64,000 nt of DNA from an uncultured Chlorobiaceae bacterium (GTDB lineage Bacteria; Bacteroidota; Chlorobiia; Chlorobiales; Chlorobiaceae), in NCBI GenBank assembly GCA_903869365.1, contig CAIPYV010000062.1:1-64000 (forward strand), given 5' to 3'. The position numbers and the translations under genes were made by a program. Below the pieces are notes generated by a model, which saw nothing but the letters and a program-made list of their open reading frames with translations, made no database searches and was not told where the DNA came from. Shown one piece after another: positions 33,255-39,156 of the stretch. Positions within the stretch are counted from its first letter, which is position 1, and each line of letters begins with the position of its first letter.

Positions 33255-34277
33255 ATGAGTAACTCGGATGTTGGCTGTCGAGTAGCGGTGTTTGGTGCAA
33301 CCGGTTTGGTTGGACGCACCATGCTCAAGGTTCTGGAAGAAAGAAATTTTCCTGTAAGCGACATTGTTCCGCTTGCTTCACCCAGAAGTGCCGGTCAGGT
33401 TGTGCAGTTCATGGGGCGGGAGTTTATTATCCAGGTTCCCTCTAAAGAAGCTTTTCGTGGAGTCGATATTGCGCTTTTTTCAGCAGGTGCTACAGCAAGT
33501 AAAGAGTGGGCTGCTGTCGCCGCATCGGAAGGTGCGGTTGTCATCGACAATTCATCGGCATTTCGCATGGATCCTGATGTGCCTCTTGTGGTGCCAGAGG
33601 TTAATCCCGGAGATATTTTTAAAGGAGACGGTACTCCTGAACCCATTATTGCCAACCCCAACTGTTCAACCATTCAGATGGTTGTGGTGCTCAAACCGCT
33701 TCATGACCGGTATGGCGTCAAGAGAGTGGTGGTATCCACCTATCAGTCGGTTACAGGGAAAGGAAAGGTTGGACGCGATGCCCTTGAAAGCGAGCTTGCC
33801 GGTGAAAAGCAGGATGAGTTTACCCACTTTCACCAGATAGCATTCAACGCCGTGCCGCAGATTGATATGTTCACCGAGAACGGCTATACCAAGGAAGAGA
33901 TGAAGATGGTCAATGAGACCCGAAAGATTATGGGTGATGACTCAATAAGCATTTCGCCTACAACGGTACGAATCCCTGTCTATGGCGGACATGGAGAGTC
34001 TCTTAATATAGAGCTTGCAGAGGATTTTGATATTGATGAGGTGCGTGAGCTTCTCAGTCGCTCATCGGGGATAATCCTGCAGGACGATCCTTCAGCCCGC
34101 ATCTATCCCATGCCGCTCACCTCTTATGAACGTGATGAGGTTTTTGTAGGAAGGATTCGCCGCGACTACTGGCATCCCCAAACTCTGAACATGTGGATTG
34201 TTGCCGACAACCTGCGCAAAGGCGCTGCAACCAATGCTGTCCAGATTGCCGAAGTTGTCATCGCGAAAAAGTTGTAG
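33255..34277 (+). CDS. asd: Aspartate-semialdehyde dehydrogenase
   Basis: Asd reduces aspartyl phosphate to aspartate semialdehyde for lysine, methionine and threonine, and for diaminopimelate. It has FGATGLVGRTMLKVLEE at the N-terminus, the catalytic Cys in IANPNCSTIQMVVVLKPLH (about 133) and the signature TTVRIPVYGGHGESLNIEL (about 236). The 340 residues are normal. Its last 20 bases overlap the end of the convergent unknown gene. Confidence 0.96.
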   Translation: MSNSDVGCRVAVFGATGLVGRTMLKVLEERNFPVSDIVPLASPRSAGQVVQFMGREFIIQVPSKEAFRGVDIALFSAGATASKEWAAVAASEGAVVIDNSSAFRMDPDVPLVVPEVNPGDIFKGDGTPEPIIANPNCSTIQMVVVLKPLHDRYGVKRVVVSTYQSVTGKGKVGRDALESELAGEKQDEFTHFHQIAFNAVPQIDMFTENGYTKEEMKMVNETRKIMGDDSISISPTTVRIPVYGGHGESLNIELAEDFDIDEVRELLSRSSGIILQDDPSARIYPMPLTSYERDEVFVGRIRRDYWHPQTLNMWIVADNLRKGAATNAVQIAEVVIAKKL

Positions 34278-35145
34278 TCCCATCATTTTCCGCAAGAGCC
34301 ATCAGTGCCGTGCTGATGGCTTTTACTGCTGAAACTGAAGAGATGGAGAAGTTGTGCGGATTACTGATCGATATTGATGGGGGAATACCGAATGTTTTTA
34401 GAGCGATTGAGGTTTCTTTTCCGATCAGTGCCACGATCATTGTATCGGCCATGGTGCCGGTAACCTGTACGCTTGTTTCCCGACAGACAGGGTTGTCTAC
34501 AAGTTCCTTTATGGCGAAATATTCCCTCTCTTCTCTGTTTTTTACCTGATGGAACGAAAAATAATCAATTCGCCCGTTTCTTGATATGCTCAGGAGTACA
34601 TAATTGTTTTCAAGTTCAAGGATAACTTGCGGTTCTTCGGTGAGCCTCGAGAGGTAAAGCATAGGCAGTTGCGGAGAACCACTGAACACTATCCGATGAT
34701 TGGTTGAAAAGAACTCCGAAACTGTTCTGCACTGTTCTTCAGGATAGAAAAGCAACAGATGTTTTTTTAGCAATTCGCCGTCGGTATTGTCGCTATACCT
34801 GGTATTCTCGCAACGGTATTGTTCAGGTTGCGTTAAAAAGAATCCGGCTTCGATAGCACTGTACTCTTTACACTCTTCAGGGCTTGCCTCTGCAGGAAAG
34901 TACGCCGGAAGAGGTAAATAGTTTCCTGGTTCAACACAGAGAGCAATATCCTCTTTTGGCCACTCTTTAAGGTGTCGCTCAAGTTTGTTCAGGATACGCT
35001 TCCTTTTTCCAGAAGCAAGCTCCCCGAGGCCTGATTGAAAGGTTTTACAGGTGCTCAGGCTGTATCCGGTGCTTCCAGATGTTGTAAGCCGGACAACAGT
35101 GCATTCCGTTGTGTTGATGGAGCATGCTATCTGATTGTTGCTCAT
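34258..35145 (-). CDS. Unknown protein, possibly DUF3822-like
   Basis: The 295-residue protein has no motif I can name with certainty. Its alternating strands (ALCVEPGNYLPLPAYF and LLFYPEEQ), together with LELENNYVLLSISRNGRIDYF followed by FHQVKNREEREYFAIKEL, resemble the DUF3822 family of Bacteroidetes/Chlorobi, distantly related to actin-fold proteins. No signal peptide or membrane span is seen. Its start overlaps the comEA-like stop as TAATG, so translation is coupled. Its 3' end overlaps asd on the opposite strand by 20 bases. Confidence 0.8.
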   Translation of the reverse strand: MSNNQIACSINTTECTVVRLTTSGSTGYSLSTCKTFQSGLGELASGKRKRILNKLERHLKEWPKEDIALCVEPGNYLPLPAYFPAEASPEECKEYSAIEAGFFLTQPEQYRCENTRYSDNTDGELLKKHLLLFYPEEQCRTVSEFFSTNHRIVFSGSPQLPMLYLSRLTEEPQVILELENNYVLLSISRNGRIDYFSFHQVKNREEREYFAIKELVDNPVCRETSVQVTGTMADTMIVALIGKETSIALKTFGIPPSISISNPHNFSISSVSAVKAISTALMALAENDGTTTFSR

Positions 35146-36821: not shown

Positions 36822-37011
36822 GCCGTTTTGTGGTTACAAGGCCAGTTTTCCCTGATTCCGGAACTTTCAGTAAAAAAACATATTTTGTTTCTGATTTTCA
36901 AACCCGAAAGCCGCTTATTCCTTCGCTATCGTGAATTGAGCAATTAATGTATATTTTCTTTGAAGGTTATAAGGACTTGTTATCACGTTAATCCATTTTT
37001 CAGCTACTATC

Positions 37012-38385
37012 ATGTCGAACCACGATATATTCGGGCTGGCAGCAGAAACACCGCTGGTTCTTGTCAAACAGATGGCCCGCCATATTCGGCCAAAGGTTAT
37101 GGCTAAGCTTGAGTACCTCAACCCTGCTTGTTCCCACTATTACCGTGTGGCATCAGCCCTCATTACAGATGCTGAAGAGCGCAAGCAGATTTATCCGGGA
37201 ATGACTCTTGTGGACTGGACATGCGGAAACAGCGGGATTGCTCTGGCTATGGCCGGGGTAAGACGAGGCTACAAGCTTCTTCTTGCTGCACCTGATAAAA
37301 TATCGCGGGAGAAGCAGGAGGTGCTCAGGGCTATTGGTGCTGAACTGGTTATTACTCCTTCAGATGCTTTGCCCGGGGAACCGCGCAGTTGCATGAATGT
37401 AGCGGAAAGCCTGGTTAAAAGTATTCCCAATGCCTTTTATGCCGGTATGTATGATAACCCGGTAAGTGTAAAGGTCCACAGTGAAGCTACCGGCAGCGAA
37501 ATTTTTCACCAGACAGAGGGCAAGGTTACCCATGTTTTTGTACCGATGTTCTCAGGTGCGATGGCTACCGGTCTTGGCCGTTTTCTGAAAGAGAGAAATC
37601 CCGGGATCAGCATTATAGGTGTTGAGTCACAGGGTTCTATATACGCAGGCCTATTGCACGATGGAAAACCGGGCACTCCAGTTTTTACAGAACTTGAGGA
37701 AATAGGTTCACGCCAGGCATCGGCCTTCTGGGATCCATCCGTTATCGATGATGTTATCCAGGTAAGCGATTATGATGCCTTTAACTGTGGGAGAGAACTT
37801 TTGAGGGCAGAAGCTGTCTTTACCGGTGGCGCCTCCGGTGCGGCTATGTCTGCAGCGCTTCAGGCTGGAAAGGAGTATCGTGAGGACGATTGTATTGTCG
37901 TTGTGATGAATGATTTCGGGGGCTATTATCTGAGCAAAATGTACAGTGATGAATGGATGCGGAAGCGGGGCTTTTACCGCAAAGCGAAGTCAGCTCTTGA
38001 GCAGATTACTGCAGAAGATATCCTGCAGTTGAAAGTTCGCAGGGATCTGATTTTTGCATATCCTGAAAATACCCTTGCTGAAGTCTTCGAAATGATGAAG
38101 CAGAACGATGTTTCCCAGCTTCCCATTGTTTCATATAACGCTCCGATCGGCAGTATCAGCGAAAACAAGATTCTTTCTATTCTTATTGAAAATGATGAAG
38201 CGATGAATTCAAAGGTTGTCGGGTTCATGGAGCAGCCTTTTTCTGTGTGCCAACCAGATGCAACTATTTCTGAATTATCTGACAAGTTACAGCAAAGTGC
38301 ATCAGGGGTATTGATCAGTCTTTCTGACGGAAGGCTCCAACTCCTTACTAAATCAGATCTTATTGATGCGTTGACTCATAAGTGA
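37012..38385 (+). CDS. Cystathionine beta-synthase-like protein with CBS pair, lacking the PLP lysine
   Basis: Residues 1-325 have the fold-II cysteine synthase/CBS pattern: ETPLVLVKQM, AKLEYLNPACSHYYRVASAL, VDWTCGNSGIALAMAGVRRG, NPVSVKVHSEATGSEIF and FTGGASGAAMSAAL. Residues ~331-457 form a two-motif CBS (Bateman) regulatory domain. In active enzymes the NP-x-x-S-V-K-x-R loop supplies the Schiff-base lysine. Here it reads NPACSHYYR, with Tyr43 in its place. The phosphate-binding GTGGT loop is also degraded (MFSGAMATGLG, about 178-188). The frame is intact over 457 residues, so this is not a simple pseudogene. It may be a non-catalytic sensor or bind another ligand. Confidence 0.88.
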   Translation: MSNHDIFGLAAETPLVLVKQMARHIRPKVMAKLEYLNPACSHYYRVASALITDAEERKQIYPGMTLVDWTCGNSGIALAMAGVRRGYKLLLAAPDKISREKQEVLRAIGAELVITPSDALPGEPRSCMNVAESLVKSIPNAFYAGMYDNPVSVKVHSEATGSEIFHQTEGKVTHVFVPMFSGAMATGLGRFLKERNPGISIIGVESQGSIYAGLLHDGKPGTPVFTELEEIGSRQASAFWDPSVIDDVIQVSDYDAFNCGRELLRAEAVFTGGASGAAMSAALQAGKEYREDDCIVVVMNDFGGYYLSKMYSDEWMRKRGFYRKAKSALEQITAEDILQLKVRRDLIFAYPENTLAEVFEMMKQNDVSQLPIVSYNAPIGSISENKILSILIENDEAMNSKVVGFMEQPFSVCQPDATISELSDKLQQSASGVLISLSDGRLQLLTKSDLIDALTHK

Positions 38386-38595: not shown

Positions 38596-39156
38596 ATGAA
38601 GGTAGAGTCCAGAAAAAGGCAGTTTATTTTAGATGGTAAGATCAAGGCTTGCTTCTGTGAAGGATGCGGTCAGATTACCGACAAGACGTTTGTTGGCGAA
38701 TGGATACCAAGTGATAAACCGAAGGACGATGATTTTCTGACGGCAGTTCCGGTTAAAAAGCATAAAGACGGGAAGAATGGTGTAAGCGATATACCTCCTG
38801 CAGCTGAAAACCAGTACTGGATTCGCTGTTCGCAGTGCAATCAGGTTTTCTTGCTCAAGGAGTGGCAGATACAGATTGACAGGGAAGTCAGTCCAGAAGA
38901 GTTGAAAGCCGAAGATTGTCAGGTGTATTCACCCCATGGTATTTACGCTAAAGGTGATGCACTCTATCATAAGGCGCTTGGTGAGGTTGGGGTGGTCAGG
39001 GAAAAACAGGCAACAGGCAGTGGAGCTTTCGTTATTATTGTGGAATTTTGTAAAAGCGGCAGAAAACAGCTTCTCGAAAATGTGCAGCTGAATTCCTCCA
39101 AAGAAAAAAATTCAGAGAGCCTTACCGATATTATTAAATTAAAACTAAGACGTTGA
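38596..39156 (+). CDS. Unknown zinc-ribbon protein with C-terminal SH3-like domain
   Basis: The 186-residue protein carries two CxxC knuckles (CFCEGCGQ near 19 and RCSQCNQ near 81) that could bind one zinc. A C-terminal segment GDALYHKALGEVGVVREKQ...FVIIVEFCKSGRKQLLENV resembles the small SH3/Tudor-like domain seen at the end of UvrD and related nucleic-acid proteins. I do not recognise the full-length family. It lies 24 bases upstream of rpsU on the same strand, so a link to RNA or translation is possible. Confidence 0.8.
   Translation: MKVESRKRQFILDGKIKACFCEGCGQITDKTFVGEWIPSDKPKDDDFLTAVPVKKHKDGKNGVSDIPPAAENQYWIRCSQCNQVFLLKEWQIQIDREVSPEELKAEDCQVYSPHGIYAKGDALYHKALGEVGVVREKQATGSGAFVIIVEFCKSGRKQLLENVQLNSSKEKNSESLTDIIKLKLRR

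Follow-up and report, generated by a model that had tools for sequence, protein, structure and literature searches.

A predicted lineage-specific cystathionine beta-synthase pseudoenzyme of the Chlorobiaceae with a possible Bateman-gated regulatory role

The pseudo-CBS gene and its surroundings

The pseudo-CBS gene lies at 37012-38385 on the plus strand of the 64,000-nucleotide stretch of Chlorobiaceae DNA analysed here (the window), with 457 codons plus a stop. The reading frame is stop-free and encodes a protein of 457 aa, made up of a fold-type-II core at about residues 5-323 and a Bateman module of two CBS motifs at residues 330-457 (37999-38382, plus strand). Pfam identified PALP (8.8e-57) and two CBS stretches. 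This was in agreement with the first-pass annotation, which had described 457 codons with a two-motif CBS domain and had rightly guessed a green sulfur bacterial lineage. The best NCBIfam match was TIGR01137, cystathionine beta-synthase (CBS), at 338.8 bits, which did not reach the curated cut-off of 510.25. Furthermore, the AlphaFold2 model had a mean pLDDT of 90.4, and the nearest solved structures were CBS enzymes, with the core superposing on CBS-like cores at 1.3-1.5 Å. The earlier description of the fold-II domain as otherwise intact held for the fold, as the structure matches indicated, but not for the pocket, which was broadly rebuilt. Judged from domain order, fold, phylogeny and locus, which all agreed, the protein is a CBS by descent.

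A promoter-like element, TGTATATTTT, was located upstream of the start at 36948-36957 (plus strand) and had a single match in the window. In 53 of 75 relatives, TGTATAT[TC]TT was located 58-78 nt before the ATG, and it is probably the promoter element of the pseudo-CBS gene. Its conservation fits expression of the gene. A search for a riboswitch or a known RNA near the gene found none.

Downstream, orf186 (38596-39156, plus strand) encodes a protein with two cysteine pairs and no Pfam match above the cut-off. Its synteny is conserved, and it marks the locus CBS-orf186-aroA; across most of the order it lies 5' of aroA, with or without the CBS gene. In addition, a 295-aa protein with no Pfam match is encoded at 34258-35145 on the minus strand, and it is conserved in the neighbourhood across the Chlorobiaceae while diverging fast (30-72% identity).

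The former cofactor site and the rebuilt pocket

The former lysine motif, NPACSHYYR (residues 37-45; 37120-37146, plus strand), aligned with NPGGSSKDR of the Mycobacterium tuberculosis CBS Rv1077. Tyr43 (codon TAT, 37138-37140) occupied the position of the Schiff-base lysine, which bore out what had been read from the window alone. The lysine was present in 72/72 active-type CBS, a term that denotes the presence of the catalytic residues in the sequence and says nothing of measured activity. Among the 80 distinct Chlorobiaceae sequences, 77 were informative at residue 43, with Tyr in 75, Asp in one, Ser in one and Lys in none. This loss (0/77 compared with 72/72) is far beyond chance.

The other loops of the site were also altered. 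The phosphate loop (residues 179-184; 37546-37563, plus strand) reads M-F-S-G-A-M in this protein for x-G-T-G-G-T of the active-type sequences, so the change noticed earlier near residue 180 was that of GTGGT to FSGAM at 180-184; over the clade the loop is x-S-G-A-M. Three further replacements had gone unmentioned. The Asn loop, DWTCGNSGIA (residues 68-77; 37213-37242, plus strand), stands for E-x-T-S-G-N-T-G of the active enzymes, with Ser replaced by Phe, Tyr or Cys at residue 71, besides Thr replaced by Ser at residue 74. The Gln that is invariant in active enzymes, and that holds the substrate carboxylate by homology, was replaced by Met146 (37447-37449, plus strand; Met in 70 and Leu in 6 of 76, compared with Gln in 72/72). 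Moreover, Ala274 (37831-37833, plus strand) replaced the Ser in contact with the pyridine nitrogen of PLP (Ala in 74/76, compared with Ser in 72/72).

When the PLP contacts of MtbCbs, as described in PMC9232105, were mapped, K44 corresponded to Tyr43, G181 mostly to Ala, Ile or Val180, T182 to Ser181, T185 to Met184 and S269 to Ala274, and Ser72 of the Asn loop was mostly Phe or Tyr in the pseudoenzyme clade. The retained contacts were S42 and, in most sequences, N74 and G183. Of the fold-II positions with a conservation of 95% or more across the 72 active-type CBS, 8/11 PLP or substrate contacts were replaced compared with 11/54 other positions (Fisher p = 0.0014), a result that describes where the stem changes fell, because the clade sequences share ancestry. 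On this alignment, the cofactor site is dismantled as a whole, beyond the lysine alone. By function, the protein fails those functional-CBS tests that were run, with the Schiff-base lysine in NPGGSxKDR, the phosphate loop GTGGT and the pyridine-nitrogen Ser all missing. Since the 412-nm PLP band is abolished in MtbCbs K44A (PMC9232105), we infer that the pseudo-CBS would form no PLP aldimine and perform no CBS chemistry.

Within the rebuilt pocket, the polar residues His42, Tyr43, Arg45 and Ser181 were nearly invariant among the pseudoenzymes, and residue 180 varied freely. Trp240, His42 and His61 were specific to pseudoenzymes.

Distribution, origin and shift of constraint

Orthologues were found in 79/86 Chlorobiaceae genomes from two genera, with intact copies 67-95% identical and a nearly constant length of 457 or 456 aa. 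Named loci with the gene were those of Chlorobium sp. L227-S-6D and Chlorobaculum sp. 24CR, among others. When species genomes of bacteria and archaea were scanned, the Chlorobiaceae were the only group among the best 80 relatives to lack the lysine. The seven Chlorobiaceae genomes without a match also lacked orf186 (7/7) and aroA (6/7), so missing contigs are more likely than gene loss. Aside from one doubtful copy, the other members of the family seen in the Chlorobiaceae were CysK-like, and CysK-type paralogues retain SVKDR. The doubtful copy, a second CBS (genome G092, locus L197), has an intact SIKDR motif and is 29% identical. As the single match of its kind, in a genome with 4% contamination, it was rejected as a second active CBS and probably belongs to a foreign contig.

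An intact-looking CBS (SIKDR, GTGGT and Ser), about 44-47% identical, was present in 10/10 genomes examined of two sister families. In most of these ten genomes, the CBS gene was followed by orf186 and then by aroA where contig or gene order permitted, as in the Chlorobiaceae. Because the lysine-bearing CBS of the sister families occupies the same CBS-orf186-aroA locus, the ancestral CBS is taken, on gene order and alignment, to have been converted in place in the ancestor of the Chlorobiaceae. The pseudoenzymes formed one clade in the tree (SH-aLRT 100), adjoining the active-type CBS of the order, on a stem of 0.9 changes per site with tips of 0.02-0.15. As read from these branch lengths, there was a single loss event on a long stem, a burst followed by renewed constraint.

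The active-type CBS of the order (L034-L043) carried TAGNTG for TSGNTG, with Ala for Ser, and shared Trp69 with the pseudoenzymes; this combination might perhaps represent an early step, or evolutionary intermediate. In genome G045 of the same order, the CBS gene was followed by a gene of the cystathionine gamma-lyase/synthase type, the arrangement expected for transsulfuration. In a third family of the order, orf186-aroA was present and CBS was absent. At one such locus (L213), alr (11-169), orf186 (628-1113) and aroA (1498-2784) lay together with no CBS between them, which would be explained either by a clean loss or by insertion elsewhere. Thus, the idea of orf186 as an obligate partner of the CBS was weakened.

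The selection check that had been proposed earlier revealed purifying selection. Pooled pN/pS was 0.126 over the whole gene, and the fold-II core stood at 0.15 compared with 0.066 in the Bateman module. These values are uncorrected proportions over 234 pairs, and are slightly raised by two pairs that include a misregistered sequence, L190. The DFGGY junction (residues 301-305; 37912-37926, plus strand), at the border of core and linker, was the most constrained loop (0.034). The Asn loop (0.056) and the lysine loop (0.084) were also below the core, but the phosphate loop (0.156) was not. For the active-type orthologues of the order, the identity of the core was 73.7% compared with 60.8% for the Bateman module; for the pseudoenzymes, the median identities were 71.2% and 87.5%, respectively. 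Constraint has moved off the catalytic core and onto the sensor module, and the Bateman module is the best-preserved part of the protein.

The 457-aa protein has, by alignment and model, lost its catalytic residues with the fold intact, and is kept under purifying selection. The earlier proposal of a retained pseudoenzyme was strongly supported: the gene is conserved across the family under purifying selection, the altered form arose once, and it is orthologous, in place, to the active-type CBS. At the level of sequence, a single event removed the PLP lysine and most of the contacts to PLP and substrate, and purifying selection acts on the rebuilt pocket loops and, most of all, on the Bateman module.

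Possible role of the pseudo-CBS

The published adenosyl-binding motif is GhxS/TxhD/E (PMC4133348). CBS2 of the pseudo-CBS reads QLLTKSD, and T446-K-S-D449 (38347-38358, plus strand) resembles a remnant of this motif, with Thr446 in 70/76 and Asp449 in 76/76 sequences. An adenosyl ligand, as had been suggested earlier, was supported by these two residues but not by the remainder: neither the G nor a hydrophobic residue in front of D is present, CBS1 lacks the acid of the motif, and the CBS2 motif of the active-type CBS of the order is the same and likewise imperfect. The suggestion of adenosylcobalamin found no support. The SAM contacts of MtbCbs were uninformative as a ligand test, being unconserved even in active relatives.

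Our main reading, to which we assign a probability of roughly 0.6, is that of a lineage-specific CBS pseudoenzyme, made in place in the ancestor of the Chlorobiaceae and acting as a Bateman-gated regulatory scaffold. The fold-II core would be the dimer scaffold, and the remodelled pocket face and the DFGGY junction would signal to a partner in which state the Bateman module is. This partner would most likely be one of the enzymes of sulfur amino-acid metabolism. A ligand of the module, perhaps an adenosyl compound, would control shape or assembly; the tetramer of MtbCbs is assembled through its Bateman module (PMC9232105). The loss of catalysis may be tolerable because the Chlorobiaceae live in sulfide and retain CysK-type enzymes. 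A sensor or scaffold role would fit the swapped constraint. The occurrence of the neighbour orf186 without any CBS counts against this reading, as does, on the residues present, the imperfect adenosyl motif.

A new catalytic use would also be compatible with the purifying selection seen in the new pocket. A repurposed enzyme, with new chemistry or a new cofactor in the rebuilt pocket or with PLP bound non-covalently, would account for the low pN/pS of three of the four pocket loops and for the near invariance of His42, Tyr43, Arg45 and Ser181. However, Tyr43 is not strict (Asp and Ser occur), residue 180 is free to vary and the phosphate and pyridine contacts are lost, which makes such an enzyme unlikely. 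The same losses bear on a PLP enzyme working through a substitute lysine. K326 in the linker is an extra conserved lysine, and together with K425 and K457 it is conserved in the pseudoenzymes and nearly absent in active enzymes, but the fold-II core has no conserved lysine that is specific to the pseudoenzymes, and K32 and K101 are as invariant in active enzymes as in pseudoenzymes. This candidate was rejected as very improbable. A relic gene in decay, or an artefact of sequencing, would also show a loss of catalytic residues, but the 80 distinct sequences from independent genomes, of 457 or 456 aa, showed a pN/pS of 0.126 and conserved synteny. Moreover, the tree gave a single clade with slow tips, and decay was ruled out, with next to no probability left for it.

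Capture of a partner protein's tail or loop by the remodelled pocket, as in CysK-CysE and CYSL-1-EGL-9, might be the main function in place of a Bateman ligand. The rebuilt form of the pocket loops is conserved, and CysK homologues are described as capturing partners in this way, in one case after loss of activity (PMC5562914). Nevertheless, the residues with which CysK-type enzymes bind the tail or the substrate carboxylate (the Asn-loop Ser/Thr and the Gln) are replaced, and the Bateman module, rather than the pocket, is most conserved; capture is thus an unlikely explanation. In addition, Cys413 of the Bateman module (38248-38250, plus strand) was invariant in the pseudoenzymes and absent in active-type CBS when the two were aligned. 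A thiol, sulfide or redox sensor, in which intracellular sulfide or persulfide would be read by the conserved Cys413 and by Cys127 and Cys259 of the core and would gate a partner enzyme or regulator, seems rather improbable. If it were true, the dead CBS would be a family-wide switch of green sulfur bacterial sulfur metabolism.

The pseudo-CBS, for which the Bateman-gated scaffold remains our preferred reading, shares an ancestor with the bacterial CBS that have a Bateman module (Rv1077; TIGR01137) and resembles them in domain order, length and fold, but differs from them by the missing Schiff-base lysine, the loss of most PLP contacts and a constraint that is now strongest on the Bateman module. 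The nearest known cases of this kind are the nematode protein CYSL-1 (Caenorhabditis elegans) and the plant TSB-like protein. CYSL-1 is a member of the CysK family that lost its biosynthetic activity and turned regulator, as is proposed for the pseudo-CBS. However, CYSL-1 is CysK-like, keeps a bisulfide site and binds the C-terminus of EGL-9, with no Bateman module described in the excerpt of its source (PMC5562914). The plant TSB-like protein, a tryptophan synthase beta pseudoenzyme, is also a dead member of the fold-type-II PLP family and controls its partner allosterically, but it arose by duplication and became inactive through changes at two key residues (PMC12727527). In the pseudo-CBS, the whole cofactor site was dismantled, the active enzyme was replaced in place and the sensor module was kept; the Bateman module, the extent of pocket loss and the in-place replacement distinguish it from both CYSL-1 and TSB-like. 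A literature search that took in few subscription papers found no prior report of a Chlorobium CBS pseudoenzyme. The locus is a clear-cut natural example of how an enzyme becomes a non-enzyme, with the ancestor-type enzyme still at the same site in the sister families and a measurable shift of constraint from catalytic core to sensor module. The Chlorobiaceae genes are likely labelled cystathionine beta-synthase and should not count as a transsulfuration step in metabolic models. Conjugative gene transfer has been published for Chlorobaculum tepidum (PMC3842273), and the question of the pseudo-CBS is testable in this species.
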